In this document: positions 6,351 through 30,971 of the stretch, in pieces | How the letters are laid out: every line of letters starts with the position of its first letter | Numbering within the stretch: the first letter of the stretch is position 1 | Assembly (NCBI GenBank): GCA_028715625.1 | Contig: JAQURL010000015.1 | Span: 1-42,092 of the forward strand | Origin: Candidatus Margulisiibacteriota bacterium | GTDB lineage: Bacteria > Margulisbacteria > Riflemargulisbacteria > GWF2-35-9 | Direction of reading: 5' to 3' | Length of the DNA stretch: 42,092 nt | Notes under the pieces: generated by a model | The model's database searches: none | The model's input: the letters and a program-made list of their open reading frames with translations, nothing else | Told to the model about the DNA's origin: nothing | Position numbers and translations under genes: made by a program

Positions 6351-6381
6351 ATATATCGAAAACAGTAATAAATAATTGCAG
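6351..6381 (-). promoter_or_regulatory. Island promoter element, site 2
   Basis: On the minus strand CTGCAAT, exactly 16 nt, then CGATATAT. It begins 17 nt after the stop codon of the preceding gene and precedes the five-gene unit starting at 6221. The 130 nt distance to the gene is explained by an intervening palindromic repeat. Same boxes and spacing as the other sites. Confidence 0.65.
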
Positions 6382-6397
6382 TGATTGTTAGCTGTTT

Positions 6398-8170: not shown

Positions 8171-8181
8171 ATGCAAACCTT

Positions 8182-9729: not shown

Positions 9730-9730
9730 A

Positions 9731-10651: not shown

Positions 10652-10697
10652 ATAAATCAAATTATCATTTCCAGTCTTCTATCAAGACTTCGTTTCG

Positions 10698-11696: not shown

Positions 11697-11713
11697 ATGT
11701 TATCCCTGCGACA

Positions 11714-11744
11714 ATATATCGAAAGGCGGGGTTAAAAATCTCAG
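11714..11744 (-). promoter_or_regulatory. Island promoter element, site 3
   Basis: On the minus strand CTGAGAT, exactly 16 nt, then CGATATAT. It ends 18 nt before the ATG at 11696 and starts in the gap after the stop of the preceding gene. Same architecture as the other island sites. Confidence 0.65.
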
Positions 11745-11766
11745 CAAAAATCTTGGAAATATAAGT

Positions 11767-13158: not shown

Positions 13159-13192
13159 TTTTCACCTTATCAATACAACAATTTCTCCTACT

Positions 13193-13223
13193 AAATATCG
13201 TAGGGAAATCAGAATTATTGCAG
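13193..13223 (-). promoter_or_regulatory. Island promoter element, site 4
   Basis: On the minus strand CTGCAAT, exactly 16 nt, then CGATATTT (one mismatch to CGATATAT). It ends 35 nt before the ATG at 13158 and begins 8 nt after the stop of the upstream gene. Same architecture as the other island sites. Confidence 0.6.
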
Positions 13224-13230
13224 GTAATTA

Positions 13231-14097: not shown

Positions 14098-14975
14098 ATT
14101 TCATTTTTTTTATTTGATCTTAATAGCCAGCTGGCTATAAATTTCCCAGAAAAAAAAGCAAAACTTTGAGCATCAAACCCTGCATTGTTTGTCATGGTTA
14201 CATTTGCACCGCAATTTTTTAAAATCTTTATTATTCTGATTTGTCCCTTCTCAGCAGCGTACATTAAAGCTGTCATCCCGCTCTCATCCTGACTATTTAT
14301 CGCAGAAATTGCTCCGGATTCCAGCAGTAAATTAACAATTCCAGGATTACCACATTTAGCGGCAGCCATGAGCGGTGTGGCTTTAGCGATGTTGGGCAGA
14401 TTCACCTCAGCACCCATCGCGATCATGTCCCTGACCAATTCTGAGTTCTCTTTAAGGATCGCATATATTAAAGGCGTATTCTCATCATATTCAGCTAATC
14501 GATAATTCAAATCAGGATGTTTACTCAATATATAATAGACTTCTGAATAATCTTCATTAACGATAGCGTTCATTAATTCTTTAGTTAAATAAGCTGCCGG
14601 TAATGGCTCCTCGGCCGGACTTCGAAACCCCAATTTTCCCATATCACGCGCCAGATGTCCCAAAATCTGAGTTTTGTTATCCTGACGCAAGTTCTTCAGG
14701 CATATATAAATCGATTTCCTGATTTGAGTTTCAGGTTGTTCTTCTCTTACAACAGGTTCGGTCATATCCAGTAAAAAAATTAATTTTTCATTAACGGCCA
14801 GCAATTCATTAATCGATACGTTTACTGCTTTCAAATCTAACAACAAATCATATGTTTGCTCAGCGTCTTCCAGAACAAATATGTTTTTGCCATTCCTTAA
14901 AAGTTCCAACTTCTCACTTAACAATTCAGGTATTACGACTTCATTTTTATTCGCGATAATTTTATATTTACTCAT
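14094..14975 (-). CDS. Ankyrin-repeat protein with island N-terminal domain (293 aa)
   Basis: The ATG at 14975 gives MSKYKIIAN; an in-frame TTG one codon upstream is closer to the GGAGG ribosome site, so the exact start is uncertain by one residue. The N-terminal domain reads NIFVLEDAEQ, LKAVN, L-FLLD, IRKSIYICLKNLRQDNK and LARDMGKLGF. The linker AAYLTKELMNAI leads into about four ankyrin repeats, ending SGKFIASWLL. It overlaps the downstream gene by 4 nt and lies 8 nt after the upstream stop. Confidence 0.88.
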   Translation of the reverse strand: MSKYKIIANKNEVVIPELLSEKLELLRNGKNIFVLEDAEQTYDLLLDLKAVNVSINELLAVNEKLIFLLDMTEPVVREEQPETQIRKSIYICLKNLRQDNKTQILGHLARDMGKLGFRSPAEEPLPAAYLTKELMNAIVNEDYSEVYYILSKHPDLNYRLAEYDENTPLIYAILKENSELVRDMIAMGAEVNLPNIAKATPLMAAAKCGNPGIVNLLLESGAISAINSQDESGMTALMYAAEKGQIRIIKILKNCGANVTMTNNAGFDAQSFAFFSGKFIASWLLRSNKKNEI

Positions 14976-14983
14976 CAAATTTG

Positions 14984-16222
14984 CTATCTGCCTCCGGCTC
15001 TTTTTATTATCTCGATTATTTCACCGCTCCTGTGTTTGCGTGCGAGCTGTAATGCAGTTTCTCCTGCATAATTCTGGTAATTTATGTCTGACACCCTGCT
15101 TATCAATTTTTTTACTATTTCCTTATGTCCTTTTATTACGGCCATATTAAACGGGGTGTTCCCTTCATTATCTTCAGCTTCAAGAAATGCGTCTTTTCCC
15201 AGCAAATAATCCACTATTTCCATATGACCTCCTTCACAGGCTTTCATCAAAGCTGTTTGGCCTTTTTCATCTTTAGCATCCAGGTCCGCGTTTAATGTTA
15301 CAAGTTCTTTTACAGTTTCCAAAAAACCTTTTTCAGCAGCTTTTATTAACGGTGTTTTCAAACTTTTAGTACGATCATTAACATCTGCTCCGCCTTTTAT
15401 CAGCTCTCTTATAACTAATGGCTGATCGTGAAATGCAGCGGCATGCATGGCTGTCCATCCTTCATCTGTATATCCCTTCTCGTTTACATCTGCCCCATTT
15501 GCAATCAACAAAGCAACCAGTTTGTTCTGTCCATTCCAGGCAGCCAGCATTAAACTGTTAAAACCGCTGATACCTGGATTTTTATAATCCGGATCAGCTC
15601 CTCTTAATATTAAATCTGCTGCTTCATCATATTGTTTATTAAATATAGCCTTCAGCAATTCTTTTCCCAATTCATAGGATTTCTCAACTACACATATGTT
15701 CTGAAAACCCAGAATTCCGAAATCCCTGGCTAATCTGCTCAAAACATTTTTCTGGTTTTCATTATTCAACTGCTGCAAACAAACTGCGACAGATTTTTTA
15801 GCTCGCTGCAGAGAATCTGTATCCTCCAATTCAGCCTCCTCATTAAGCAGTGAAAAAAAATCAATATCTGTGAATTCGTTCAAAAGCAAGCACAAATCTT
15901 TCCCTTCTTTTTTAACATCCAGCAAATCCTGTAATAAAGTTTGGGCGTTCTCGCCGGTAAAAATATTCTTTTTCTCCTGCAGTAAGAGTAATTGCTTTCT
16001 AAGCTCAGGTTTAATGGTCCTGTTTTGATTGAAACTTTCTATTTTTAACACCAGTTCATCAAGATTTACCCCTGATCTTTTCAGCAACAAAGCTATTCCT
16101 ATAAAGTTTCTCAGGTCCTGATCAGATAAATTACCACCTGTAATTTGGCTTAAATTGCATTCTTCATCCAAAAACTTTTGCAAATCATCATTAACGCCAA
16201 TTGCTATTAATTTATTAAACAT
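14984..16222 (-). CDS. Ankyrin-repeat protein with one and a half copies of the island N-terminal domain (412 aa)
   Basis: The tag is MFNKLIAIG. Residues about 10-67 look like the first half of the N-terminal domain (LLLKRSGVNLDELVLKIESF) without its NIF motif or second half. A complete copy follows at about 70-180: NIFTGENAQ, LLDVKKEG, AKKSVAVCLQQLNNEN and LARDFGILGF. About seven regular ankyrin repeats then run to the C-terminus, including GQTALMKACEGGHMEIVDYL. AAGGAG lies upstream of the ATG and overlaps the preceding gene's stop. The extra half domain makes this an intermediate between ordinary members and the two-domain protein at 22002-22928. Confidence 0.9.
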   Translation of the reverse strand: MFNKLIAIGVNDDLQKFLDEECNLSQITGGNLSDQDLRNFIGIALLLKRSGVNLDELVLKIESFNQNRTIKPELRKQLLLLQEKKNIFTGENAQTLLQDLLDVKKEGKDLCLLLNEFTDIDFFSLLNEEAELEDTDSLQRAKKSVAVCLQQLNNENQKNVLSRLARDFGILGFQNICVVEKSYELGKELLKAIFNKQYDEAADLILRGADPDYKNPGISGFNSLMLAAWNGQNKLVALLIANGADVNEKGYTDEGWTAMHAAAFHDQPLVIRELIKGGADVNDRTKSLKTPLIKAAEKGFLETVKELVTLNADLDAKDEKGQTALMKACEGGHMEIVDYLLGKDAFLEAEDNEGNTPFNMAVIKGHKEIVKKLISRVSDINYQNYAGETALQLARKHRSGEIIEIIKRAGGR

Positions 16223-16228
16223 TATTCA

Positions 16229-17791
16229 CTAATCTCCTTTCAAAAGTTGTTGTAACTTCAGATATATCTGCCAATATTTATCATCAACTGTTAAAAATCT
16301 TTTCGCGTACTCCATACCCGCCTCCATGTCCGCACGAGAAACTCCTTTTTGCAACATAACATCCACGACTTTTGTCATTTTCCAACTTACAACCTTTCTA
16401 AATACCGAATCAGTTGTTTCATAGGATAATTTGTCATTAATATCCGCCCCGCCGTTTATCAAGGCCAGTACAGTATCCTCGTCGCATGGGTACTGGTCTG
16501 CTTCCAGGGCATTTAATAACGCTGTTCTGCCTTTATAGTCTCTGAGCCTCACATCAGCTCCTGCTTTCAATAGCTCAACAACAATTGCTGACCGGCGTCT
16601 ATAGGCTGCGCAGATGAGGGGGGTATCCTTAACCATAGAATTTTCATCTACAACATTAACATTTATTCCTTCTTTAATAAGTATTTTTATGATGTCCAAA
16701 TGGCCGTGGTAAACAGCCGAACCTAACGGAGACTTACCTAAATGCACATCAGCCTTGTTTTCCAGGAGTATACGTACGTTGTAAATTTTGCCTCCAAAAA
16801 CCGCCCTGAATAAAGGTGTCCAACCGTTTTTACATATATGATTAATCTTTGCACCGGCTTTAACAAGCATATTCAGCAAAGCTGGGTTGCCTTGCTCTGC
16901 CGCTGTCATCAGCGCAGTCCAGCCAACGCGGTCTTCATCATTTACTCGTGCTCCTTTGCTAAAAAGTAGCTTAATAATATTCATGTTGCCTTTTTCTACG
17001 GCTAATGTAAAAACCGGCTTTTCTCGTTCCCTGTCTCGGGCATGAATATCCGCGCCTCTTTTTATCAAGTCCCGTACAAACTTTTCCTGATTATAATAAA
17101 TCGCGAACATTAAAGGAGTATGTTTATCATTATCCCTATAATTCACATCTGCTCCCGCATTTATCAACAATTTGTAAATCTTATCGTTATTCTGTTTTAT
17201 GGACTTAATTAAAGCCGTATCGCCATGATCAATAAAAATATCTGATGTACCTTTTTCGAAACCGTTTATATCCACTCCCGCATTAATCAATTCCTTGACC
17301 AGGTTATCGTAATTTAGTTCTGTTGCCCTGATCAAAATGCTTTTACCCTCTTTGTTTTTATAATTAATATCAGCGCCTTTATTTATAAGTTCCTTTACCT
17401 GTTTACTGTCCGCCAATTCTATAGCCTGATAAAGCTCCTCGCCCAGATAACAGTTCCGACGAAATCCCAGAACAATCAGATCTCTCGCCAGTATCCCAGT
17501 GATCTGCTTCTGATTTTTGTCATTCAAATTTTCCAGGCAGATATATATGGACTTTTTAGCTTTGCTGGTTCGATCCTTGGCATCAATATCAGGAACATTA
17601 TTATTTAATAAAAAATCCAGTTCTTTAACCTGCCCGAGAATATTTCTGATGTTTTTGCCAGAATCTTTTAATAATAATAATTCTTGAATAAATCCTTCAC
17701 CATTTATAAGGAATGGATTCTCCTTTTTGACCAATTCTTCCAAAAGCAATGCAGTTCTGGAAATAACCATTGAAACGATTTTTTTATTCAT
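16229..17791 (-). CDS. Ankyrin-repeat protein with island N-terminal domain (520 aa)
   Basis: The protein starts MNKKIVSMV with GGAAGG 7 nt upstream. The N-terminal domain is compact; the usual NIF motif is replaced by NPFLINGE, but LLLLKDSG, L-DFLL, AKKSIYICLENLN and LARDLIVLGF are clear. The linker (YLGEELYQAIELADS) leads into about eleven ankyrin repeats, for example HTPLMFAIYYN and GWTALMTAAEQGN. The last 50 residues are a helical non-repeat tail ending LKLQQLLKGD. It is the second gene of the unit starting at 19476. Confidence 0.9.
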   Translation of the reverse strand: MNKKIVSMVISRTALLLEELVKKENPFLINGEGFIQELLLLKDSGKNIRNILGQVKELDFLLNNNVPDIDAKDRTSKAKKSIYICLENLNDKNQKQITGILARDLIVLGFRRNCYLGEELYQAIELADSKQVKELINKGADINYKNKEGKSILIRATELNYDNLVKELINAGVDINGFEKGTSDIFIDHGDTALIKSIKQNNDKIYKLLINAGADVNYRDNDKHTPLMFAIYYNQEKFVRDLIKRGADIHARDREREKPVFTLAVEKGNMNIIKLLFSKGARVNDEDRVGWTALMTAAEQGNPALLNMLVKAGAKINHICKNGWTPLFRAVFGGKIYNVRILLENKADVHLGKSPLGSAVYHGHLDIIKILIKEGINVNVVDENSMVKDTPLICAAYRRRSAIVVELLKAGADVRLRDYKGRTALLNALEADQYPCDEDTVLALINGGADINDKLSYETTDSVFRKVVSWKMTKVVDVMLQKGVSRADMEAGMEYAKRFLTVDDKYWQIYLKLQQLLKGD

Positions 17792-17886
17792 TTTCCAACC
17801 TTCCCAAACATATTATTTTTCACCAAACCTCCAACCTTCTAATAATCCAATTTCTTCCTTCTTTTTCGTTTCACCTATCACTTATT

Positions 17887-19476
17887 CTAACTCTCCACTG
17901 CTCCTGCGCCTTTGAGTATATCAATAATTTCCGTTCTTTTTTCCATTATTGCCAGCTGCAATGGAGTAGTACCTTTATTATCCGTAATATTTATTTCAGC
18001 ACCTTTAGCCACTAAGGACCTGACTGCCTTTTTATTGTTGGTTTTAATAGCATAAAACAAAGCAGTCCTGTTCCAGTTGTCTTTTACATTTACGTCAGCG
18101 CCGGCTTTAAGTATTAATGAAAATAACTGACCGCGATTATATTTTAAATCGGACATTAAAGCCGTAAGTCCCTCGTAATCCTGCAAATTCAAATCTGGTT
18201 TTTTGGAAATAATTAATCTGGCCATATCCTGTTTGTAACATACAATTGCCAGGATAAGAGGAGTAAGCTGATGTCGGAAATCAGACCTGCACCTTATGTT
18301 TATATCTGCCTTGCGCCTTAATATCTCTTTCACCAGATCATAATAATTTTTTATTATGGCCATACTTAAAGCCGATTGATATTCTTCGCCTGATTGAATG
18401 TTCAGCTCGGCTCCGCTTATAATAAGTTTTCCAGCGACTTCCTTATGTTCCTTGGATAAGGCCAGGGTCAGCGCAGTCCAGTTATCTGCGTCCTTAATGT
18501 TCTTATCAGCCTTTTTTTTCAACAGCATTTCCACTATATCTTTATGGCCGTTCACAGCCGCGAACATTAAGGCTGTCCATCCTCCATTATTACGGGCATT
18601 AATATCAGCTCCGCCTTTTAATAGCACCTCGAAAAGCTCCTTTTTACCTATTTGCGCAGCGAACATTAATGAGGTAGTATTGGTAATATCTTTGTGATTT
18701 ACATCAGCGCCGGACTTTAAAAGCTTTTGAACATTCCTGACATGTTTACCAAGGACAGCCTGCATTAAAACGGAATAATTGTTTCTTTGCGTATTAATGT
18801 AATTAACATCAGCCCCCTTTGCTATGAGAAGGTCCAGCACATCTTCACCGCCCCATAAGCCTGCTGTTCTCATCAAAGCAGTATTATTGTCATTATTAAC
18901 TGCTTCCAGATCAGCGCCGACCAGTATTAGTTCTTTAACAACATTCACGCATTCCCAGCAAGCCTGAATTAAAAAAATATTGTCTTTTGGTCCATACTTG
19001 GTTTCAACACGGGTACAAAGAAAATCCGCTCCCATCCTGATAAGTTTTTTAGCTTTAACAGTATTTTTTTGTTCTATAGCCTCAAATAATTCTCTGGCAA
19101 GATATCCATCTTCTTTAATATTCAGATATTTCAGTACTCTAAAATCTCTGGCCAGATTCTGTAAAACCTTTGATTTGTTTGCGGAATTCAATTGATCAAG
19201 ACATATATAAATAGATTTTTTCGCTTTGGCTGCCGGATCTTTTTCCTGTACAACCGGTGGTTCCTGCATTGCAAGGAATTCCAAGCCTTTGATCCCGCTT
19301 ACCAGCTCTCGCAGATCAATACCCTTGATCTTCGCTTCTAATAAGTTGTCAATTAAACTTTCAGCTGTAAAGGTGAAGAAAACGTTTAATCTTTTGTCTT
19401 CAAGTAGCTTGAGGCGTAACAGTATAGAATCTGTTAATCGTTTCTTTGTTCCAATTGAAATAATTTTTCTTTTCAC
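17887..19476 (-). CDS. Ankyrin-repeat protein with island N-terminal domain (529 aa, GTG start)
   Basis: The start is GTG with AAAGGTG 4 nt upstream, giving MKRKIISIG. The N-terminal domain has NVFFTFTAES, LLEAKIKG, L-EFLA, AKKSIYICLDQLN and LARDFRVLKY. The linker DGYLARELFEAIEQKN precedes about twelve ankyrin repeats, among the most canonical in the island (GGWTALMFAAVNGHKDIVEM). It opens a five-gene unit ending at 13231, with a promoter element 125 nt upstream. The gap between carries cacttatg-type short repeats. Function unknown. Confidence 0.9.
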   Translation of the reverse strand: MKRKIISIGTKKRLTDSILLRLKLLEDKRLNVFFTFTAESLIDNLLEAKIKGIDLRELVSGIKGLEFLAMQEPPVVQEKDPAAKAKKSIYICLDQLNSANKSKVLQNLARDFRVLKYLNIKEDGYLARELFEAIEQKNTVKAKKLIRMGADFLCTRVETKYGPKDNIFLIQACWECVNVVKELILVGADLEAVNNDNNTALMRTAGLWGGEDVLDLLIAKGADVNYINTQRNNYSVLMQAVLGKHVRNVQKLLKSGADVNHKDITNTTSLMFAAQIGKKELFEVLLKGGADINARNNGGWTALMFAAVNGHKDIVEMLLKKKADKNIKDADNWTALTLALSKEHKEVAGKLIISGAELNIQSGEEYQSALSMAIIKNYYDLVKEILRRKADINIRCRSDFRHQLTPLILAIVCYKQDMARLIISKKPDLNLQDYEGLTALMSDLKYNRGQLFSLILKAGADVNVKDNWNRTALFYAIKTNNKKAVRSLVAKGAEINITDNKGTTPLQLAIMEKRTEIIDILKGAGAVES

Positions 19477-19499
19477 TTTTCACCTTTCACAATTCACTA

Positions 19500-19575
19500 A
19501 TTTCTGCCAACCTTCCAACCATCTAACCCTCCTGCACTTATGCACTTATGCACTTATGACACTTAACACTGATCT
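19500..19575. repeat. Low-complexity intergenic spacer with short tandem repeats
   Basis: This gap contains the phrase ccaaccttccaaccatctaa followed by several tandem cacttatg units. Similar phrases occur in the gaps at 17795-17860, 22940-23005 and 32590-32820. Transcribed from the minus strand they are purine-rich. I see no coding potential. Confidence 0.45.
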
Positions 19576-19600
19576 CCTAACACATCACGATCAGCCGTAT

Positions 19601-19631
19601 ATATATCGGAAATTTGTTGTTTTTATTTCAA
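19601..19631 (-). promoter_or_regulatory. Island promoter element, site 5
   Basis: On the minus strand TTGAAAT, exactly 16 nt, then CGATATAT. It lies 125 nt before the GTG at 19476; the spacer between holds low-complexity repeats. Same architecture as the other island sites. Confidence 0.62.
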
Positions 19632-19684
19632 TATTTTTGGAAACGCAACTTATAGCAAAGAACCCCAAATTGAAACCCTTTATG

Positions 19685-20830
19685 CTAATTGCCCGGACTT
19701 TTGTCTGTAGCTGTGTTTAGCAAACGGATTATTTCTTCTATTTTTTTATTCCATTTATTAAAATCCTCAACACTTATTTTTTTCTTTTTATATTGTTTTT
19801 TGAAGTAATTTAATTCGTCTTTAATTATATCCTGCGCTGTTTGTCCTTCTTTGTTTTTTAAAAAGATGTCAACTCCGTTATTAACAAGTATTTGAACAAT
19901 ATCTTGATATCCAGATCTCGCGGCTAACATCAACGCAGTCATTCCTTTGCCATCCTGCACATTCAGGTTTGCACCGGCCTTTATTAACAATTTCAGCAGA
20001 TAACAGTTATTATCATAGGCGGCAAAAGTAAGGGCATAATTTCCTTCCTTATCTGCTATATCTACCTTGGCCCCAAGGGAAATTAGCTTTTCAACAATCT
20101 TTTTCATTCCGGAAACACGAATAACTTCCAAAAACGCTGTGTTCCCTCGAAGATTCTTTTTATTAATGTCAGCACCAGCCAGAACAAGTTTTGACAATGT
20201 TTCTCGCCTGCCATAAATAGCAGCATAATGAATGGCTGTTTCTCCTAAGTCATCAGGCATTTCCAGATCAGCGCCAAGATTTATGAGTTCTTCAACTATC
20301 TCTGTTCTAAACACTCTAAGTGCTTCATGTAAAGCAGTGCGGCCCCTGGAATTTTTGTCATGGATATCTGCGCCTGCTTTTAAATAATCCCTTATCTTTC
20401 CATACTCTCTTTTCATAATGGCACTTCTTATTTCTTTACCCAGATACCCTCGTTTTATAGGCACATATACTTTATTTTTGTAACCAAGCAGTTCAAAGCT
20501 TTTGGCTAACTGTTTTAAAACTTTATCAGCATTCTCTTGGTTCAATTTCCTCAGACAAAAATATATAGCTGTCCTTGCCTTAGATTTGATGTCTGAGCTG
20601 TCTGTTTCAGACCTGTGTTCCGATCGTAAAAATTCCAAATTTTTTGTTTTCGCAAGAACCACAATATAATCAATACCTGACATTTTCATTAATAGAAATT
20701 GATGAATAACATCTTTAGACTGACTTCCTGAAAAAATATTTATGTTATTATCTAGAATTTTTTTTTGTTCGTTTAAAAAGTTAACAAGAACTTTTTCCAA
20801 ATAATCAAAAGATACCAGCTTGTGAGCCAT
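19685..20830 (-). CDS. Ankyrin-repeat protein with island N-terminal domain and basic C-terminal helix (381 aa)
   Basis: The tag is MAHKLVSFD, with GGGGAGG upstream of the ATG. The N-terminal domain has NIFSGSQSK, LLMKMSG, L-EFLRS, ARTAIYFCLRKLNQEN and LAKSFELLGY. The linker RGYLGKEIRSAIMKRE leads into about six ankyrin repeats (roughly 130-320). Unlike most members it ends with a Lys-rich helical tail of about 50 residues containing KKKKISVEDFNKWNKK. Last gene of the unit that begins with the JAMM protein at 30971. Confidence 0.9.
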   Translation of the reverse strand: MAHKLVSFDYLEKVLVNFLNEQKKILDNNINIFSGSQSKDVIHQFLLMKMSGIDYIVVLAKTKNLEFLRSEHRSETDSSDIKSKARTAIYFCLRKLNQENADKVLKQLAKSFELLGYKNKVYVPIKRGYLGKEIRSAIMKREYGKIRDYLKAGADIHDKNSRGRTALHEALRVFRTEIVEELINLGADLEMPDDLGETAIHYAAIYGRRETLSKLVLAGADINKKNLRGNTAFLEVIRVSGMKKIVEKLISLGAKVDIADKEGNYALTFAAYDNNCYLLKLLIKAGANLNVQDGKGMTALMLAARSGYQDIVQILVNNGVDIFLKNKEGQTAQDIIKDELNYFKKQYKKKKISVEDFNKWNKKIEEIIRLLNTATDKSPGN

Positions 20831-20862
20831 TTAATAACCTCCCCTTATTAAATCACTTTATT

Positions 20863-21966
20863 TTACGGGTCCAGATAAACCATCATTTCCTCATTACCAT
20901 GATGGCGGGCCCAGTACCAGGCGGTCATATCCTCATTATCTCTAAGGCTCTTTTCTGCTCCGGCCTCAACCAGTAATTTTACGGACTCAAAATCATTATT
21001 CCGTACCGCTGCTATCAGAGGGGTAATCCCACGTTTATTAGCGGCATTTATATTGGCTCCGGCATTGATCAACGCCTCTATCAAGTATGGCCTTCTAAAG
21101 TTCCATGCTATATAAATAAGCGGCGTATCGTCTTGCTCATCAAGAAGAGTATCAGGATTAGCGCCGGCTTCGATTAATTTCAAAGCCATATCATATTTAT
21201 AGTCCTTTAAAGCAGACATTAAAGCCGTACTGCCATCTTTGGCTTTGATATCCAAATCAGGTTTTTTACTTAGCAAAAAATCTACAGCATCTTCATTAGC
21301 TGAACCTATAGCATAAAAAAAAGCAGTTTTCCCGCTGCTATCCTTATCATTGATATTCGCTCCTCTGGATAATAAGCTGTTGATTATTCTTTTAATATTT
21401 TTAATATGTTCATAGTTTGTAGGATTATCAGGTTCAGTAGAATTCTCTATAAAGTTTATCCATTTACGCACTGCATAAATAATCGCGGTTTGATCGAAAT
21501 TATCTTTTTTATTAAAATCAGCGCCTTTTTCCAGCAGTTTGATAACCAGTTCAAAGTTGTTACCATTAAAGGCTTTCACCGATTCTTCGCTCAAATAACC
21601 GTTTTTACTGAAGCCTGTAAACCCCAGCAACTCAAAATCTCTACCTAATTTTTTTAGAACAACTCCTTTATTCGAAGAATTTAACCCTTCCAGGCATGAC
21701 CAGACAGATACCATGGCCTTTTGTTTCTCCGGGTCCCGGTCTGATAACTCTGTTTTACTCGGGGCGTATAAAAATTCCAAATCGTTTATTGTCGCGAAAA
21801 TAGCACGCAAATCAGTTCCTGTTAGTTTTAATATCAGCATATTTTCCATGAGTACTTCAGCTTCTCCGGGCTCAATAAAAACATTTTTGTTAGCACTGAG
21901 CATTTTCAGTTTACTGTTCAGCACAACTAAAGGTCCCTGCTCTGTTGATATTATTTTAGTCAGCAT
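20863..21966 (-). CDS. Ankyrin-repeat protein with island N-terminal domain (367 aa)
   Basis: The protein starts MLTKIISTE with GAGGA upstream of the ATG. The N-terminal domain reads NVFIEPGEAE, LLILKLTG (written MLILKLTG in the protein), L-EFLY, QKAMVSVWSCLEGLN and LGRDFELLGF. The linker NGYLSEESVKAFNGNN precedes about six ankyrin repeats; the second contains a charged insert of about 20 residues (IENSTEPDNPTNYEH). The stack ends with MTAWYWARHHG. It sits 32 nt from its downstream neighbour and 35 nt from its upstream one. Confidence 0.9.
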   Translation of the reverse strand: MLTKIISTEQGPLVVLNSKLKMLSANKNVFIEPGEAEVLMENMLILKLTGTDLRAIFATINDLEFLYAPSKTELSDRDPEKQKAMVSVWSCLEGLNSSNKGVVLKKLGRDFELLGFTGFSKNGYLSEESVKAFNGNNFELVIKLLEKGADFNKKDNFDQTAIIYAVRKWINFIENSTEPDNPTNYEHIKNIKRIINSLLSRGANINDKDSSGKTAFFYAIGSANEDAVDFLLSKKPDLDIKAKDGSTALMSALKDYKYDMALKLIEAGANPDTLLDEQDDTPLIYIAWNFRRPYLIEALINAGANINAANKRGITPLIAAVRNNDFESVKLLVEAGAEKSLRDNEDMTAWYWARHHGNEEMMVYLDP

Positions 21967-22001
21967 ATAAGTTATTCCTCGTTAGTCTTGTCATTCGCAT
22001 G

Positions 22002-22928
22002 TTATCCGCCGAGTCCTCCATCGATGTCCCTGCTCGTATCCGTCAAAAATCTTAATAATCTTAAATCTCGACTATCTTCCGGTTTAGGCAACCTGTAACC
22101 CAAATCAAAAAAATATCGTTTCAAATCCTCAGCCACCATGTTGATGTTTTTAGACCCATCGAGTATTTTTAAAGCAATAAAAATCGGTTTTTCCATTAAT
22201 CGACTGTCCATCAGTAAGAATGTCTCTCTATGAGTCATCAATTCCAGTAATTCCAACCCCGGTATTTTGCACATTAGCTGAGTAATTATATAATTCTCGT
22301 CGTCAGGATGTTGCTGCTTAACTGCCAAAAGTTCAGCAACAACTCCTGCAGCGTCATTACCGGCAAAGACATTAATCTTGCGAGCCAGCAAATCCAGTCG
22401 CGTTTTCAAAAAATCAGATATTACAGGGCCTGCGTCGGTTTGCTCTGAGCCACTTGAAGATATATCCTCAAGACCAAGGCTTCTAAATGCTTCTCCCAGC
22501 TTCTGCCCCACTACCTCGTAATTATCAGGTTTCAGGCCTGTTACACAGTTATAAATTTTAGTAACCGCTCTGGATAGAGGATCGTTTTTGTTAAGTTCGG
22601 GTTTGTTACCTTCCCAGATGGGCCTGAGGTACTCAATATCTTGAAAAAAACTCCAAATATCTCCACCCGATTCTTTTTGTTTCAGTAATTCTTGCACCAA
22701 TTTTATGGTTTCAGGTCCTGCGAAAACATTTTTGTAACCAATTAATAGTTGCTTTTGTTCGTTAATTGAAAATACGTTTTCTTTAACCTCGGCATCAGCA
22801 ATATTGCCTGCCGATTTTAACGGTTTCAGATAAGAGACAACCGTTTTCAAGGTATTTGTTAACAGTCCCTTAAATCCGGTTTCTTTTCTACTCTCCACAA
22901 AATTTATCGCTATAATCTTGTTCTTCAT
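22002..22928 (-). CDS. Two-copy island N-terminal-domain protein without ankyrin repeats (308 aa)
   Basis: The tag is MKNKIIAIN, with AGGT before the ATG. No ankyrin repeat is present. Instead the N-terminal domain occurs twice. Copy one (about 60-152) has NVFAGPET, LLKQKESG, AVTKIYNCVTGLKPDN and LGEAFRSLGL. Copy two (about 168-285) has NVFAGNDAA, LLAVKQ, IPGLELLELM and LKRYFFDLGY. The C-terminus is a short Asp/Gly tail (SRDIDGGLGG). This shows that the N-terminal domain is a unit separable from the repeats. It lies near the ATPase in the same unit, so a core role such as bridging or oligomer nucleation is possible but is inference. Confidence 0.88.
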   Translation of the reverse strand: MKNKIIAINFVESRKETGFKGLLTNTLKTVVSYLKPLKSAGNIADAEVKENVFSINEQKQLLIGYKNVFAGPETIKLVQELLKQKESGGDIWSFFQDIEYLRPIWEGNKPELNKNDPLSRAVTKIYNCVTGLKPDNYEVVGQKLGEAFRSLGLEDISSSGSEQTDAGPVISDFLKTRLDLLARKINVFAGNDAAGVVAELLAVKQQHPDDENYIITQLMCKIPGLELLELMTHRETFLLMDSRLMEKPIFIALKILDGSKNINMVAEDLKRYFFDLGYRLPKPEDSRDLRLLRFLTDTSRDIDGGLGG

Positions 22929-23008
22929 ATTTAGTACCTGCTATCTTCCAATCATCTAACCTTCCTAACTTCTGCATTTACGCACTTACGCACTCCTGCA
23001 CTTTTCCC

Positions 23009-23035
23009 GTCATCCTTCGTCAGGCTCAGGATGAC
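23009..23035. repeat. 27-nt palindromic intergenic repeat, copy A
   Basis: GTCATCCT and AGGATGAC arms flank TCGTCAGGCTC. The surrounding bases (cttttcccgt before, ttaccccttatct after) are also repeated in copy B, so a unit of about 45 bp is duplicated. In the minus-strand transcript it would form a hairpin between two genes of the same unit. Confidence 0.65.
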
Positions 23036-23067
23036 TTACCCCTTATCTCTTATCTCCTGCCACTTAC

Positions 23068-24231
23068 TCACGGATTATCCTGCTTATACGTATATTTCAA
23101 ATAAAAGGTCATCTCCTCGTCTTCATTAGATTCAGCTATACCTATAGCCATTTTATTGTTAACCCCGATATCAGCCTCGGCTTCCTCTACCAGAAAAATT
23201 ACAGCATCCATATGGCTGTTTTCAACCGCTTTTGTCAGCGCTGTATCTCCTACCCAATTCTGATAATCCACATCAATTCCAGCAGCCAGAACTTCTTTTA
23301 GTTTACCTATATTACCTTCCGCTGCTGCTTGTAGGAATTCACTTCCCAGCTCTTGCTCTCTCCTTTTTAATATTTCTACAACTTCCATCTTTCCTTCCGA
23401 ACGTGCTATATCAATAGCTTTTTTTCTGTTAGAGTTGCGCATGTTTAATTTAGCTCCTTTGGCCAAAAGTAACTCCACTGTTTCTTTATATCCCTTTTCA
23501 GCGGCCCTCATAAGAATTGTATATCCATTAGTTTCCTGTTCGTTAATATTTATTCCATGCTGAATAAGGAGTTCTACCATCGAGTTGAACCCACATATCG
23601 TTGCTTGACTGACAGGTTTAAAGCCAAATTTATCTTTCGCTTCAAAATCTGCACCATATTTTATCAATAATTTGGCTGCTTCCAGGCATATTTGCCGGTT
23701 TACTAATTGTAAAGAACCACGAAATACAACCTCGCGAAATGGTGTAAATTGACTTTCCGTATTTCGATATTCCAAATCTGCGCCCTGGTTCAAATAGGCC
23801 TCTAACTTATCAACGTCACAATTTTTTGCAGCCTCCATCATTTCATCACCTAAATAACCGTTTTCTTTTGCCTGATGAGTATAAAATATTTTAAGTTCCA
23901 GCATTTTTTCCTGAACTTTAGAAAATATTAGATCAGGATTTTTAGAAAAATTCTGCAAGCTGTGCCATAAACCGATACTATTCGGATTTGAAGTTTCTAT
24001 AGCTGATGGGCTTTTTGCTTTTAAAAACTCAAGTCCGTTTAAAGTCGCGAAAACTTGGCGAAGCGATTCTCCTCCGCCTTGCAAAGCGACTTCCAGCATC
24101 AACTGTTTCAGGCGCTCATCTGCCTTTACTAAAACGCCGCCTGATAATTCTGTAATAATCTTTTTGAGGTTTTCTTGTTCTTGGGTAAACGTCCAATTTT
24201 CCTGAATATTAATTGCCAGTATTTTATACAT
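23068..24231 (-). CDS. Divergent ankyrin-repeat protein of the island family (387 aa)
   Basis: The protein begins MYKILAINI with GGAG 8 nt upstream of the ATG. The N-terminal domain is the most divergent of the set: no NIF motif, but L-EFLKA is kept, followed by SIGLWHSLQNF in place of the SIYxCLxxLN block. The linker NGYLGDEMMEAAKN is typical. About six ankyrin repeats follow in two groups (roughly 137-290 and 295-375) separated by a charged helix (RREQELGSEFLQAAAEGN). It is the first ankyrin gene after the AAA+ ATPase, with a palindromic repeat on each side. Confidence 0.88.
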   Translation of the reverse strand: MYKILAINIQENWTFTQEQENLKKIITELSGGVLVKADERLKQLMLEVALQGGGESLRQVFATLNGLEFLKAKSPSAIETSNPNSIGLWHSLQNFSKNPDLIFSKVQEKMLELKIFYTHQAKENGYLGDEMMEAAKNCDVDKLEAYLNQGADLEYRNTESQFTPFREVVFRGSLQLVNRQICLEAAKLLIKYGADFEAKDKFGFKPVSQATICGFNSMVELLIQHGININEQETNGYTILMRAAEKGYKETVELLLAKGAKLNMRNSNRKKAIDIARSEGKMEVVEILKRREQELGSEFLQAAAEGNIGKLKEVLAAGIDVDYQNWVGDTALTKAVENSHMDAVIFLVEEAEADIGVNNKMAIGIAESNEDEEMTFYLKYTYKQDNP

Positions 24232-24357: not shown

Positions 24358-27300
24358 CTAATTCGCGATATACCCAGTATAGCTAAGCCTCCAACTGCTT
24401 TCACTGGACGAACCATTGGTTATTTCTACTCTCACTTTTGTCTGACCGTCTTTGCCTGCTCCTGCTTTTTCCACTGTCATATAATAACCTGCGCCTCCTC
24501 CGGTCTTTTGCATAAAATCTCTGAAACTTAAAGTTTGTCCATTACTGCGCGATTCATTCACGGGCATACTCTCATTATTTTTCAACCCTGCAACTAACAG
24601 GTCAGCGACTTTTTGGGCTGTTTCCACAGCTTGACCGGCTATTAAATTATTGGCTATTATCATTACTTCCGTTCCTCTGCTCCTTACACCACCCATAAAA
24701 TATGAAAGTTCTTCGGGAAATGCTACAGTTTTACCCTTGAGCTCACCGATCTTGCTTTGCATCTGAGAAACCCCGCCCAGAATCTCAACGATCTGAGGCT
24801 TGATATTTTCAAAAAACTTCCCGCTGGCCGCTTTCAAAATCTCATCAATTATTTTTTCCAAAGGTTTAAGATCAAGATTTTCAGGGTCTTTCTTCAGCAT
24901 ACCTCTTAATAAATTCTCCATGAATACCGTAAGCATTGTTAAAAAAGTTTCCTGTAAATCTTCTCTCTTCTGCGCTGAAATAGCTTCAGCCATACTCTTT
25001 ATGGTATCAAGGTTGATTACCTGTTTGCCGGCAAGTTGGTTTACCATATCACTACTTGCCAGCCATTTTTTAAAAGTTTTATTGGTTTCACTAATCGATG
25101 TTGATTCACATATCAGTTCAGTCATGGTATCAGACAAAAATCTGTCTCCTGTTGAAACCAAATAATTGATTTTTGCTTTCAAATTTTCCAGACTGTTTAC
25201 ATCACCTTCCTTGCTGTTGTCATTGCTGTCCAAATTTTTGATAAATTCCGCCCAGTTCTTGAATTGCTCAGCAAAAGTTTTATTAGAAAAACTGAATTCC
25301 GGCATGGTCTCTACAGACTGCCCCGCATCACTGGAAACAACCCCGGTATGAGCAAAAACACTGTTCAATAATAGTTCCAGCAGTTTGAAGCTTTCAATTA
25401 TCCCTGCCTTAACTTTAATTTCTTCCAAAAAGTTATCTTTAGCCGTTATTGTTTTCAATAAATTAATAATCTCAATGACCAGAGGCTTAAATTCAGTGGA
25501 ATTTTTGGGAATATTTCTCAATTTGTCCAGGTTATTTTGCAGACTTTTGATATCCTCCTCATCATTTATATTGCTTACTTTGTCCAGAGGTATGGTTAAA
25601 TGGTCTTTTATCTCTCCCTGAATACTAAAAATATATTCCTGACCTGTTTTTGTTAAAGAAATTTCACAATCCGCACCTTTTATTAAGGAAATCAAATAAG
25701 GATTGTTATTAATTATTTGCAGCATATTTGTCTTTTCCAGTATTTTCTGTTTATCTGTAATCCTTTCCTGGGCCGCGCGTAACTCTATTTCCGGCTTGGT
25801 CTCGGAATAAGTAACAGGTTCTATGCTGGCTATAACGTCATTCAAAATTTTAATATTCTCATTGATCTTGAGTTTGTTTTTCTGTTCGTTTTGTTGATCG
25901 GACTCCAGCTTATGCTTGAACTCGCTCATTAACGCGGTAGGTTTGGGCACCCATTTGGTCAGGATGTCCCATAATAACGAACGTGTATAAGTGTCCAGAT
26001 AACGCTTAAGGACTTCTTCCAGCAGTTCGTCTATCAGACTATCGGGAATTTCGCTGGCAATGGACCTTATGCTCACATCAAAAACCTGAATATTGGTCAT
26101 TTCTTCCTTTAAACCCAGAGTATTGCGGAAATCTTTACCGTTTAACATATAGAAAAGAAAAGAAGTAAGTTGTTCTTTGTTAGTATTTTCCAGCAATTTC
26201 ATCAATTTGCCGGAAAATGATTTAAACGTATCTTCCATATTGGAAACCTGATCTCCGTAATCATAAATTTCTTTAAAAATAGCCATGTTATCTTTATCAT
26301 ATTTCTTGTGATCTATTTCAGGAACTTCCTGGGTTGACACTGTCTTAAAGGGTTCTACCTTTTGTGTTTTGCTGCTTATACTGGATAGGTCTACCCAGTC
26401 TTTTTGCTTTATAGTTTCAGGCAATTCAAATGTACCCCAGAGTACGGATCCGTTGTTAAGATCAATTTCATAATCCAGTATCGGCATAAATGCCTCGTTT
26501 TTGTCCTTAAACAGTTCTATAGTGTTCTTGATAAAAGGTTCGGACACATAAATCCCTTTTGCTTCCTGGTCTTTCTGTTCTTTGTTGGAATCAATTTTTT
26601 CTCCGGCACGCAGACGTTCAATTAGTTTTTTATAATATTTTATTCCGGAAATAGAGGACCTGGTAAATTTTTCATGGAATTCAATACGAAAACGCATTTC
26701 ATTATCCTTGACCTCCCACTTTATTTCCAGGGCTTTTTCATTCAGACCGGGTATAATATCTTTAAGAAGTTGCTTATCACGTTCCTGTAAAAACGGGCTC
26801 TTGGGTTTATTCTTATCTGTTATGGAATGAAAAGAGTCCTCTACGCCCCGTTGTTTAATTGTCTGTTCAGCTGCGGTAAGCTGTGCCATATAGATCATGG
26901 TACGCAAAAAACTGCCTTCACCGCTAATAATTTTTTGCATTGCCGGCTCGGATAAATCATATAGGGACTGGAACCTTCTTTTGGTTGCTCCCACAATCTT
27001 TGCCACCGGGGTGGTGGGACCGGTTTCGGGCATCATTCCCTTCAGGGTTATGTTGCCTTGCGGTTCAATTAATTGTTTATTGCCCAGATCGATAATGCTT
27101 TTTTTCTTCATCATCTTTCTTACATCTTCAATTGTTATTTTGGCCCCTGCGTCGTAGTAATCGGGCAGCAGCTTCAATTGCTGAATGATGAACTGTATTA
27201 CATCTTCAGCTTCATTGGGATTGTCATATGATACCGATAATTCCTGCTTTTCCTTTTCAGATATGAGCACAAGAATCTTGTTTTCCAGCGTCGGATCATC

Positions 27301-29928
27301 GCTGAGCTTAATAAGAACATCCAGGTCCTTATTTTTACCCAATTTGGTTAAGGCATCACTGAATGGTTTTCTGACTTTATCTTCAATCAAAGTACGCATA
27401 TGTCTTCCACCCTGAGTTTTATCATGGAACTGTTTCAGATATTCATATACCTCATCAGTTACGATAATATCATTGTTTCTCTCTATCTTTTGCGGTTTTT
27501 TCAGGTTCCTGATCATAATTCTTTCAGCTGTTTCCCTGAGCATATCATTGGACATACGATTAAAAATCGTAATACCTCCACCGGCCAGTATCCTGTTAAT
27601 AATTTCCGGCTTAAATTTAGCGGAGAAACGAGCCTTAACTTTTTTAGCATTATCCTGGATAACCTTTTCTGTTTCCTGATCGCGTTTGGACAATTTGCCG
27701 TGAGCAATGTTATAGACATCTCTTTCTTGTTCCTTATAATCATCAATTAACTGATTAATCTCATTGAAATCATTCAGGGGAGCTATAATGTCAAAAAAAC
27801 TGTCAGGCAGATAATCGCCGGTTTCCAGCAGGTTTTCCAGGTAAGCGGCATTTGTATTTTCTATAAGCGTATAAGCATCCTTAAATTTGTTTTTTAACGT
27901 ATCAAAAAAATTTTGCCTTATATTCTTTATTTTTTCTTCATCACTTATAGCACTTTCTTTTTCCTCAGTACCGCTTAATTCTTTGATTCTCTTTTCCTGC
28001 GCTTTTACCATTTCTATAATTTGATTAATATCTCTCATGGGCACTTTTACCATATGATCCGGATAATTCTCTCTTGTTTCAATATTCACTTCCAAGATGT
28101 CCTCATACTCAGGATACTCTCCGCGTTCAATATTTCTGTTGTTTAAAATACTTATTAATAATTTTTTCTTTTCTTCCAAACCATAGACAATCTCATTTTT
28201 GTCTTCCAACTGTTTCTCGCGGCTTTCCTCTTCTACCTTGGTAAGCAAAATGTTCAGTTTTTCCACACACTCCAGCCTGGACCTGTGAATTTCTTCCTCA
28301 TTTTGCCTGGCTTTTCTGGACTTCAGATACTGGTGTACACCATCAACATATTTAACATCTTCCGCGCCCAGATTTGATGTAAAACCTATATAAACCTGAT
28401 TGAAATTAACTTCTCCTTCTTTTGTGGTACTGCTCTTGGCACGGTCCAATATATTCATTAAAAATTCAAATAATTCCGGACATGCTTTCTCGACTTCATC
28501 AAATATTACAACACAGGAAGGATTGTTCTTTACAAACTGCAAAAGCTTTGACCCCTCCTCATACCCTACGAAACTGGGAGGAGCGCCGACTATCTCGGAC
28601 AATTGATACTTGTCCATTATTTTATTACAATCTACATAAAACTCAGGTAAACCCATCTTTTCCGCGAAAAGCTGAAATGTAAATGTTTTACCTGTACCGG
28701 TGGGCCCGGTAAAAACACCGTTAAAAAGCGGTCTGTTGGGGTCCATTAGTCCCAAGGCGTTTTGTCTGGCCACCGACATAAGCTGTTCCACTGGTTCATC
28801 AGCGCCGACTATTTCTTCCTTCATTTCTTTCTCAATCTGGGCCAACCTCGCCATTATATTAATATCTACCTTATTTCTATCCTTACCGGCCATTTCCGCT
28901 ACATTTTCTATAACCTGGTCTTCTGTAACATCAACTTCTCTGTTGCCATTACTTTTCATTTCTTCTTTTTCCAGATCAATAATACTCTTAACCAGTTTTT
29001 TCAGTATCGGTTCCAATTCGTCAAAAGCCTGCTGGTCTTTCTCTTTAATGGCCGTAAAAAGATTGTTAATATCTACCAGCAAATCTTTGTAGAATGAGGC
29101 TATTCTTCTTTTAAACGCTGTTTTTTGAATATTGATTTTGGTTATAATTGTTTTTAAAACCCTGATGCTTAATTCCGGGTTAGCACCGGACAGATGTCTC
29201 CTGGAAAGCTCATAAATCAACCGTATAATATTGTTGGAAATTCTTATCGGTAAATCCGAATATTTGAAAGACTTTTCCAGCCAGGAATCATTTCTAAATA
29301 GCTCTCTGATATGTTTTAAAATATTAATAGTTTCCAGCCTGCTGCGTTCCGGGATGACAATTGTTTTTAGTCGACGGTCAAGCGCGGGAAGCCCTTCAAC
29401 ATATTTTTGCGCTTCCTGCGTAGTTGTGGCGAATACGAAACGGCTGTCAGTCGAGGTTAAAAATGTTTTCATTTCATCAAAAATAATGGTCGGCGCGGCC
29501 GGGTTTCTCTGGCCCCAGCGATGAGCCTCATCAACCATAACTATCATTTTCGGATGTTTTTCTATAAATTCTTTAAGCGCATTCAATTTGTCATTGTATG
29601 TACCGCTCCCGTCATTATGCAAAAAATCGCAGGCATCGATGAAGCATACTCGAAAACCGGGAAGTTCTCCTCTTTCGATCATGGCGCCGACGTGCTGCAT
29701 AACCGTAGTTTTTCCTGTTCCGGGAAGACCTTTTAACAAAACATTGGCTGTATCATGTTCCTGCAGTCTGGCCAGTACCTGTTCGGCAACTTCGGTAATA
29801 CCTATAGCTTCATATACATTGGGATCAACAGTCTTGTAATTTTCACGAAAGGTTTTTATTTTTCCTTTTAGAATGTCCGGGATTTCCAGTTCCTTGTTCC
29901 CATTTCCCAAAGCTACAATTTTATTCAT
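24358..29928 (-). CDS. Giant HSP100/Clp-type double AAA+ ATPase (1856 aa)
   Basis: The ATG at 29928 gives MNKIVALGN, the island tag, with GAGGGG 10 nt upstream. D1 (about 40-260) has Walker A GLPGTGKT at 67-74, a pore-loop Tyr near 111 (GTYND), Walker B MIVMVDEAH (D133, E134) and an arginine-finger region ALDRRL. D2 (about 370-880) is clearly ClpB-like: Walker A GPTGTGKT at 408-415, pore loop GAPPSFVGYEEG, Walker B VVIFDE (D477, E478), TSNLG, arginine finger FKPEIINRI (R779) and sensor 2 GGR at 840-842. An insert of about 245 mostly helical residues splits D2 between TSNLG and the arginine finger. The Clp N-domain is missing, and about 950 unrecognised residues follow D2. HSP100 proteins unfold and thread polypeptides; the substrate here is unknown. 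It follows the JAMM gene closely. Confidence 0.92.
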   Translation of the reverse strand: MNKIVALGNGNKELEIPDILKGKIKTFRENYKTVDPNVYEAIGITEVAEQVLARLQEHDTANVLLKGLPGTGKTTVMQHVGAMIERGELPGFRVCFIDACDFLHNDGSGTYNDKLNALKEFIEKHPKMIVMVDEAHRWGQRNPAAPTIIFDEMKTFLTSTDSRFVFATTTQEAQKYVEGLPALDRRLKTIVIPERSRLETINILKHIRELFRNDSWLEKSFKYSDLPIRISNNIIRLIYELSRRHLSGANPELSIRVLKTIITKINIQKTAFKRRIASFYKDLLVDINNLFTAIKEKDQQAFDELEPILKKLVKSIIDLEKEEMKSNGNREVDVTEDQVIENVAEMAGKDRNKVDINIMARLAQIEKEMKEEIVGADEPVEQLMSVARQNALGLMDPNRPLFNGVFTGPTGTGKTFTFQLFAEKMGLPEFYVDCNKIMDKYQLSEIVGAPPSFVGYEEGSKLLQFVKNNPSCVVIFDEVEKACPELFEFLMNILDRAKSSTTKEGEVNFNQVYIGFTSNLGAEDVKYVDGVHQYLKSRKARQNEEEIHRSRLECVEKLNILLTKVEEESREKQLEDKNEIVYGLEEKKKLLISILNNRNIERGEYPEYEDILEVNIETRENYPDHMVKVPMRDINQIIEMVKAQEKRIKELSGTEEKESAISDEEKIKNIRQNFFDTLKNKFKDAYTLIENTNAAYLENLLETGDYLPDSFFDIIAPLNDFNEINQLIDDYKEQERDVYNIAHGKLSKRDQETEKVIQDNAKKVKARFSAKFKPEIINRILAGGGITIFNRMSNDMLRETAERIMIRNLKKPQKIERNNDIIVTDEVYEYLKQFHDKTQGGRHMRTLIEDKVRKPFSDALTKLGKNKDLDVLIKLSDDPTLENKILVLISEKEKQELSVSYDNPNEAEDVIQFIIQQLKLLPDYYDAGAKITIEDVRKMMKKKSIIDLGNKQLIEPQGNITLKGMMPETGPTTPVAKIVGATKRRFQSLYDLSEPAMQKIISGEGSFLRTMIYMAQLTAAEQTIKQRGVEDSFHSITDKNKPKSPFLQERDKQLLKDIIPGLNEKALEIKWEVKDNEMRFRIEFHEKFTRSSISGIKYYKKLIERLRAGEKIDSNKEQKDQEAKGIYVSEPFIKNTIELFKDKNEAFMPILDYEIDLNNGSVLWGTFELPETIKQKDWVDLSSISSKTQKVEPFKTVSTQEVPEIDHKKYDKDNMAIFKEIYDYGDQVSNMEDTFKSFSGKLMKLLENTNKEQLTSFLFYMLNGKDFRNTLGLKEEMTNIQVFDVSIRSIASEIPDSLIDELLEEVLKRYLDTYTRSLLWDILTKWVPKPTALMSEFKHKLESDQQNEQKNKLKINENIKILNDVIASIEPVTYSETKPEIELRAAQERITDKQKILEKTNMLQIINNNPYLISLIKGADCEISLTKTGQEYIFSIQGEIKDHLTIPLDKVSNINDEEDIKSLQNNLDKLRNIPKNSTEFKPLVIEIINLLKTITAKDNFLEEIKVKAGIIESFKLLELLLNSVFAHTGVVSSDAGQSVETMPEFSFSNKTFAEQFKNWAEFIKNLDSNDNSKEGDVNSLENLKAKINYLVSTGDRFLSDTMTELICESTSISETNKTFKKWLASSDMVNQLAGKQVINLDTIKSMAEAISAQKREDLQETFLTMLTVFMENLLRGMLKKDPENLDLKPLEKIIDEILKAASGKFFENIKPQIVEILGGVSQMQSKIGELKGKTVAFPEELSYFMGGVRSRGTEVMIIANNLIAGQAVETAQKVADLLVAGLKNNESMPVNESRSNGQTLSFRDFMQKTGGGAGYYMTVEKAGAGKDGQTKVRVEITNGSSSESSWRLSYTGYIAN

Positions 29929-29933
29929 AATAC

Positions 29934-30971
29934 TCACGCCCCTCTCGCATTATTATTGTTTTGATCTAAATCTATGTTTGCCGGAGCCGACCCACCGGTC
30001 TTGCCTCCGTTCTTACCAGCCCCGTTATTATGTTGATTTTCACTAGCCAGTATCTCTTCACTTTTTTGTTTTATAGAATTCAAATCCGTTATCACGGAAT
30101 CCACAAAAGAATCCTTGCCGCCATCTGTTAAGCTTTTTTTAACAGCATCTAATAGTTCTGTTTTGAAATCCATATCAGATGTATCAAGGTCGTAGCCGAT
30201 ACCATATATTTTCCCGGCCAGCATATCAGCCAGTTTATTCAATTCCTGCTCATTTTTATAATTTCTGAAATCAGGATATTTTTCCATAAAGTCTTCAATG
30301 ACATGCGATAAATCATGATCATCAAAGCTCAAATTATCGATAATATCTTCAGCAGCGCTGCCGAATTTATTGCGCAGCCACTTTTTTATTTTGCCGGGTA
30401 GTGAATTTTCATCTTCCTTTTCGCCACAGAATTTTCTTATTTTCGTTTCCAGCGATAAAAGCTGATCCTCAAGCTTGTCAGCTATTTTTCTCATCTGATC
30501 GTTATTGATCCCGATAATTTTGGCTATAGATAAACCAGCAACCCTTTTTATGTTGCAGTATTCATATTCCGGATCGTAATCAGTTGTTTTATTTGTATCG
30601 AAATGCGGATTCTTATATAACCTGTATTCACCGTTGTCAGTATAAACAATTACAGCGAAGATATTCGGACAGTTCTTCACAGTTTTTTTATCGGTAGAGG
30701 ACATTTCCAAATCGCCATTACGATGGTAATGCGCATCAACAAAATACTTGCCCGCGTATTTTGATACCAGAGGTGCGACAATTCTGTCTTGTTTTCTGGT
30801 AATATTTATCGAGGGAGCATAATTTTCAAATTTTCCCAACTCATCAACAGAGAATCTGATCAGAATTTCATAGCCACGTTTTTCTGATTCTTTGGCTGCT
30901 GCAGCAAAAATTTTCTGCAGTTGTTTGCTGCTTATTCCATTTATAATATTTGCTATAATTTTCCTGAACAC
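29934..30971 (-). CDS. Putative JAMM/JAB-fold metallopeptidase at head of the island (345 aa, GTG start)
   Basis: The start is GTG with GGGGTG 4 nt upstream; the protein reads MFRKIIANI, the island tag. At 81-94 it has HYHRNGDLEMSSTD, matching the JAMM zinc site H-x-H-x7-S-x2-D (H81, H83, S91, D94). This is followed by IFAVIVYTDNGEYRLY, a strand pattern usual after the site in JAB and DUF4329-like domains. The upstream catalytic Glu is not certain (E44 is a candidate) and the Pro after HxH is Arg, so activity is not assured. Residues 150-310 are helical and charged; the last 35 are Asn/Gly-rich and probably disordered. JAMM enzymes cut peptide or isopeptide bonds. As first gene before the ATPase, processing or de-modification of island proteins is an inferred role. 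Confidence 0.7.
   Translation of the reverse strand: MFRKIIANIINGISSKQLQKIFAAAAKESEKRGYEILIRFSVDELGKFENYAPSINITRKQDRIVAPLVSKYAGKYFVDAHYHRNGDLEMSSTDKKTVKNCPNIFAVIVYTDNGEYRLYKNPHFDTNKTTDYDPEYEYCNIKRVAGLSIAKIIGINNDQMRKIADKLEDQLLSLETKIRKFCGEKEDENSLPGKIKKWLRNKFGSAAEDIIDNLSFDDHDLSHVIEDFMEKYPDFRNYKNEQELNKLADMLAGKIYGIGYDLDTSDMDFKTELLDAVKKSLTDGGKDSFVDSVITDLNSIKQKSEEILASENQHNNGAGKNGGKTGGSAPANIDLDQNNNNARGA

Follow-up and report, generated by a model that had tools for sequence, protein, structure and literature searches.

ClpB/Hsp104 ATPases combine two AAA+ modules, equipped with Walker A and B motifs, sensors and arginine fingers, with an N-domain, a long M-domain coiled coil and aromatic pore loops in both D1 and D2. 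In ClpA and ClpC, a tripeptide of the IGF/FGF type constitutes the docking motif for ClpP. Protein export by the PTEX system of Plasmodium involves the ClpB-like unfoldase HSP101, a membrane pore and a motif-processing protease. PTEX unfolds and translocates proteins bearing the short N-terminal motif PEXEL, which is found in about 10% of the Plasmodium proteome (PMC8896661). In the contractile injection systems of Photorhabdus, cargo with an N-terminal signal is loaded by Pvc15, a tandem AAA ATPase of which only D2 is active (PMC11495950). Here we compare with these systems a giant Hsp100 of the Margulisbacteria (GTDB usage, corresponding to the WOR-1/Saganbacteria phylum); one member of this phylum, Ruthmannia eludens, lives as a symbiont inside the cells of Trichoplax (PMC6784892).

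The giant is encoded at positions 24358..29937 on the minus strand of the window, the whole stretch of 42,092 nucleotides that was analysed (contig JAQURL010000015.1), and the coordinates given below for its parts and for its neighbours refer to the same strand unless otherwise stated. The interval reported in the first-pass annotation of this DNA is a real open frame: it is uninterrupted, has its stop at 24358 and may start either at GTG 29937 (1859 residues) or at ATG 29928 (1856 residues). We prefer ATG 29928 because the Shine-Dalgarno stretch GAGAGGGG lies about 10 bases before it; all residue numbers are counted from GTG 29937. The proposed identification as an HSP100-type ATPase agrees with the placement of two Clp-kind AAA+ modules by Pfam (AAA and AAA_2) and by PDB searches (ClpC/ClpB, residues 36-530), in which the best sequence match is ClpC (6em9) and strong similarity stops near residue 530. 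The Clp N-domain, said to be absent, is indeed missing, as D1 begins by about residue 40 and the Pfam scan returns no Clp_N, while the M-region has the length of that of ClpC/ClpE and is shorter than in the ClpB-like copy that the same genome carries on C70. With its 1856 residues the protein is about twice as long as ClpB, and its C-terminal portion of about 980 residues, which the first-pass annotation had put at 950 residues and in which it recognised no motif, has no known relatives.

We then aligned the giant with its four full-length relatives and with the three canonical Clp ATPases of its own genome. Walker A and B are retained in both AAA+ modules, as expected of a member of the Hsp100/Clp superfamily: they correspond to residues 70-77 and DE136-137 in D1 and to GPTGTGKT (residues 411-418; 28684..28707) and DE480-481 in D2. 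Both modules also retain their arginine finger, that of D2 being R782 (27592..27594), and D2 sensors are found at N522 (sensor 1) and in the GGR of residues 843-845 (sensor 2, R845; 27403..27411). The earlier statement that pore-loop residues are kept in both modules holds for D2, the loop of which (GAPPSFVGY, residues 451-459; 28561..28587) or its variants preserve the aromatic-hydrophobic-glycine pattern in all five giants compared, but not for D1 (residues 40-340; 28918..29820), where the aromatic of KYRG type is gone in the same five proteins. Given that the Walker pairs and arginine fingers of both modules persist together with the pore loop of D2, threading is the likely activity of the giant, as had been suggested; a hexameric ring that would thread its substrates at the expense of ATP agrees with the arginine fingers and with the D2 loop.

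A helix-rich insert occupies residues 525-770 (27628..28365), between sensor 1 and the arginine finger of D2. The stretch from TSNLG (residue 520) to FKPE (residue 775) spans 255 residues in the giant and 222-314 in the four other full-length relatives, versus 29-41 in the three canonical Clp ATPases of the genome, so that the net insertion amounts to some 215-225 residues, a little below the 245 or so originally reported for this position. Its helical character is in line with AlphaFold models, which predict mostly long helices with low confidence. The insert can be aligned inside each of the two subclades of giants (E = 9e-5 and 1e-30) and not between them. In the corresponding segment, IGF and FGF tripeptides are present in two Clp ATPases of the same genome, and a tripeptide of the [LIVMF]G[FL] type is missing in four of the five giants; a single LGF is present in the G016 protein, and the window giant has YGL only. 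Since the insert occupies the segment of the ClpP-docking tripeptide, it probably forms an arm on that face of the D2 ring from which substrates exit. The giant resembles ClpC/ClpA/ClpE in the length of its M-region and in having ClpC as top PDB match, but differs from them by an insert in place of the docking segment. A shorter helical insert is seen at the same D2 position in L046, another extended Hsp100 of the phylum.

The C-terminal half of the protein (residues 881-1859; 24361..27297) shows no significant match in Pfam, PADLOC or PDB. About 300 residues following sensor 2 can be aligned across all giants of both subclades (hhalign E = 6e-12), whereas the rest is mostly alignable only inside subclades: over the last 700 residues or so, giants of the window subclade are no more similar to those of the Saganbacteria subclade than a reversed control, although the last 120 residues or so of the window giant match those of G032 (E = 4e-7). 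AlphaFold runs with three sequences gave an unusable model of the C-terminal half (pLDDT 38.5) and, for the N-terminal half (pLDDT 53.7), a model in which only the AAA cores are usable. The alignment that the first-pass annotation had named as capable of overturning its conclusions, namely one with ordinary ClpB relatives, was carried out and did not overturn them: neither the insert nor the C-terminal half occurs in canonical Clp ATPases, be they from this genome or from others of the phylum. We also considered homology of the C-terminal half with a further group of extended Hsp100s found in the phylum (L041, L043, L044, L045 and L046; 1043-1420 residues, with small upstream genes of their own), and set it aside since the similarity is weak once the D2-small region is removed (pairwise E = 1e-3).

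Among 74 genomes of Margulisbacteria, the giant is present in six (G000, G014, G016, G032, G054 and G066), the relatives of the window protein comprising four full-length sequences of 1841-2015 residues plus one split over contigs. These genomes belong to different GTDB families, save for G054 and G014 that share one, and within the family and order of the window's genome no second giant is found in this sample; two of the bearing records are labelled Ca. Saganbacteria bin.592 and WOR-1 bacterium RIFOXYB2_FULL_46_45. A scan of GTDB contigs with the single giant sequence found no relatives, and a profile scan of GTDB contigs found two, both in Margulisbacteria; plasmid matches cover D1-D2 only. 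In a tree of the D1-D2 region, the five complete giants form one clade with 100/100 support, separate from canonical ClpB/C/E and from the second set of Hsp100s of 1043-1420 residues. The existence of these relatives and their grouping in one clade show that the long frame is not due to chance.

Directly upstream of every giant lies a gene for a small partner protein, hereafter abbreviated as SP, which is present in two tandem copies in G054. The SP of the window (345 residues, starting with MFRKIIA; 29934..30971) overlaps the GTG start of the giant by 4 bases and contains an invariant D217-x-H219-xx-S222-H223 motif (30303..30323), with a D-x-H-x-x-SH core. An SP profile matches the same six of 74 genomes as the giant and none besides (Fisher p = 5e-9). 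The giant and SP are a strict two-gene module, and the giant represents a new subfamily of Hsp100s, constantly accompanied by its partner. Two further genes follow the module in four of the genomes other than that of the window, the first encoding about 110 residues and the second a protein of 462-496 residues with an invariant HELNH (L055:7349-8770, L037:3107-4597, L038:5809-7197 and L056:7949-9373). This putative zinc metalloprotease shows 50-59% identity between genomes, far more than the giant encoded two genes away; it is only weakly linked to the module because distant HExxH relatives, the wider HELNH family, occur in 38 of the 74 genomes. Elsewhere in the window's genome, a HELAH protein of this metalloprotease-like family lies near an uninterrupted open reading frame of 5313 residues (L109:2995-18936).

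The giant could be viewed as a diverged ClpB-type stress disaggregase that bears lineage-specific extensions and has a function unrelated to its tagged neighbours in the gene row. Its tandem AAA+ architecture and its similarity to ClpB/ClpC, which reaches about 24-31% identity with ClpB/Hsp104 over D1-D2 and extends to Walker motifs, sensors, arginine fingers and the D2 pore loop, speak for such a role. However, the set of features typical of ClpB, namely the N-domain, the long M-domain coiled coil and aromatic pore loops in both D1 and D2, is not found in the giant, which has no N-domain, has a short M-region, has lost the D1 pore loop, and adds the D2 insert of about 220 residues, the 980 or so C-terminal residues and the constant small partner gene. 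Considering further that the genome already has three canonical Clp ATPases and that the giant is tied to SP and to the tagged proteins described below, we deem a disaggregase of this kind improbable.

SP and the giant head a row of 21 close-packed genes on the minus strand (375-30971), with gaps ranging from -35 to 208 bases. Nearly all of the 19 proteins encoded downstream of the giant (375..24231) have a common N-terminal domain of about 140 residues followed by ankyrin repeats. The row runs past the end of the contig; as positions 1-374 of the window nearly repeat L068 (contig C107) 1-870, with a few differences, the array probably continues on C107 with two more members. Twenty of the 21 proteins, including SP and the giant, carry a short N-terminal tag, defined here as K-[ILV]-[IV]-[AS] within about 10 residues of a plausible start (allowing R for K is not needed). 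Eighteen of the 19 downstream proteins have it, the one at 3764-4948 reading KITA instead, and the box of the giant is MNKIVA (29911..29928). Both the order of the genes and the N-terminus of the giant itself thus tie the new subfamily to a set of proteins defined by the tag. The first-pass annotation mentions neither this tag nor the strict pairing with SP.

Of 1378 N-terminal Met contexts, 55 show the tag, compared with 8 of the 6584 internal contexts (odds ratio 34, p = 5e-34), and controls with internal Met and with reversed patterns rule out that it is an artefact of AT-rich start codons. It is present in 51 of 910 unselected open reading frames (5.6%) over 1.19 Mb of sequence from the window's own genome, where tagged genes cluster, with 12 adjacent pairs versus 2.6 in shuffles (shuffle maximum, 9). 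Further boxes in this genome are found at L094:2865-4907, L095:2797-4371, L138:11044-12438, L072:10881-13385, L130:16156-18021 and L136:999-2867. The carriers are unrelated to each other and include PFK, iPGM, PGK, PGM, a TIM-aldolase fusion, NDK-Maf and CoaD-CoaE, as well as ADK, NAD synthase, SET, PLD, CofD and HAD proteins. The SET domain is known from proteins modifying eukaryotic chromatin, and a tagged protein with this domain is encoded at L065:12469-13134. The tagged PGK, TIM and PFK are divergent, and canonical, better-scoring copies without the tag are encoded elsewhere in the genome.

Comparable rows are present in G066 (L141, L142, L143 and L144) and G054 (L056), beside the module or elsewhere in the genome, in which same-strand genes encode proteins starting with M-x-x-x-K-L-[IV]-[AS]-F, continuing with L-R-x-x-G-[FVIL]-[PA] and then with SUMF1-like, WD40, HEAT or LRR-like domains. 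The association of a common N-terminus with differing domains of the binding type, seen also in the window row as one domain of about 140 residues plus varied ankyrin repeats, might suggest that the array proteins are substrate adaptors, an enlarged set of the ClpS/MecA type. Their common N-terminus would dock on the giant while ankyrin, WD40, HEAT or SUMF1-like domains would each bind a different target for unfolding. Yet the tag is present also on SP, on the giant and on whole enzymes that are unlikely adaptors (PFK, TIM plus aldolase, PGK, iPGM, NAD synthase and CoaD/CoaE), and we therefore regard the adaptor function as improbable. For the ankyrin proteins, a role as partners or clients that share the tag with the giant is a better reading than that of mere stimulants of its ATPase, in which they had been considered initially.

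Across the phylum, matches to the tag patterns are most abundant in three genomes with the module, G000 (80, control 3), G066 (49, control 2) and G054 (42, control 1), the 42-49 tags of the latter two reading K-L-I-[AS]-F, and no genome without the module exceeds 27 matches. Conversely, G014, G016 and G032 have the module yet only rarely match either of the two patterns that were tested for the tag, while G005 and G006 have no module yet encode genuine tagged NDK-like and aspartase-like proteins, as judged by eye. These proteins show that the tag does not strictly depend on the giant, which cannot be the sole machine reading it; together with the rarity of the tag in three module genomes, they indicate that the tag is older or wider than the module. 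Moreover, the tag-like box on the giant itself implies that it may be cargo rather than motor. In that case the tag system would handle the giant as one of its clients and convey it, along with SP and the array proteins, to a compartment or host cell, where it would keep tagged proteins folded or remodel complexes, a separate machine reading the tag. Besides the tagged proteins of genomes without the module, this possibility is favoured by a K/R-x-[IV]-[AS] box that can be recognised by eye near the N-terminus of all six giants, by the box of SP in the window and G032, and by the divergent glycolytic copies bearing the tag beside untagged canonical ones, a pattern that would fit a destination having a proteome of its own. 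The box is weak, however, in G032 (RRVA) and G066 (KTIA), and no other tag-reading machine was found; we consider it rather unlikely that the giant is such a client.

We tentatively favour, without strong confidence, a different reading in which the giant and SP are the motor of a module dedicated to tag-marked proteins, working by threading via D2 and docking to a receiver. The giant would form a hexamer and pull polypeptides through the D2 ring with ATP, while D1 would bind and probably hydrolyse ATP, having lost its usual grip on the substrate. The D2 insert on the exit face, the C-terminal half and SP may dock the ring to a receiving partner other than a protease, be it a membrane, a pore or a compartment. 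Recognition of the tag would select the protein set for a common destination, the tagged ankyrin proteins encoded behind the giant being unfolded or remodelled en route to it or at it; other tagged proteins may be handled, too. In favour of this reading are the conserved D2 motifs with the lost D1 pore loop, the position of the insert, the strict pairing of SP and giant, the enrichment of the tag, the gene order, the presence of the module in the three genomes richest in tags, and the precedents of Pvc15 and PTEX. Against it, neither a pore nor a membrane partner nor an injection machine was found.

We infer a dedicated Hsp100 that would serve a tag-defined protein set in the manner of HSP101 in Plasmodium export. 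The resemblance to PTEX consists of a ClpB-like unfoldase accompanied by many proteins with a short N-terminal motif (here the tag and the rows), which is found in about 10% of the Plasmodium proteome as PEXEL and in 5.6% of the open reading frames sampled here as the tag. The motif is different, though, and the sequence relation is limited to D1-D2, the pore and the processing protease being PTEX features. The giant is comparable to Pvc15 in being a tandem AAA ATPase set beside proteins with a common N-terminal tag, but differs in that no contractile sheath accompanies it: Phage_sheath_1 has no match in any of the 74 genomes, whereas three control genomes were positive, and a motor for contractile injection (eCIS/T6SS) was rejected on these grounds. 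A role in anti-phage defence was likewise rejected, as PADLOC gave generic AAA and ankyrin-type matches only.

Taken together, the giant, its partner and the tagged row suggest a dedicated protein-sorting system that is still undescribed. In its full extent, which we consider possible though doubtful, this unreported system would use a four-residue tag to direct about 5% of the proteome, including the divergent second glycolytic set, the ankyrin arrays and eukaryote-type domains, to a single destination, be it a compartment, the surface or a host cell, with the giant and SP as motor. If this were true, a phylum close to cyanobacteria would use an Hsp100 to drive a tag-defined proteome along a route of its own, much as in the export of proteins by malaria parasites or in import into peroxisomes, and the cargo of this route could be listed straight from sequence via the tag. 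Whatever the mechanism, the strict pairing with SP, the arm at the ClpP-docking position and the loss of the D1 pore loop render the module a natural test of the roles of D1, the docking face and C-terminal extensions in Hsp100s. On the strand opposite to the array, the window further encodes a protein of 1657 residues with group 1 bacterial Ig and macroglobulin-type domains (32889-37862).
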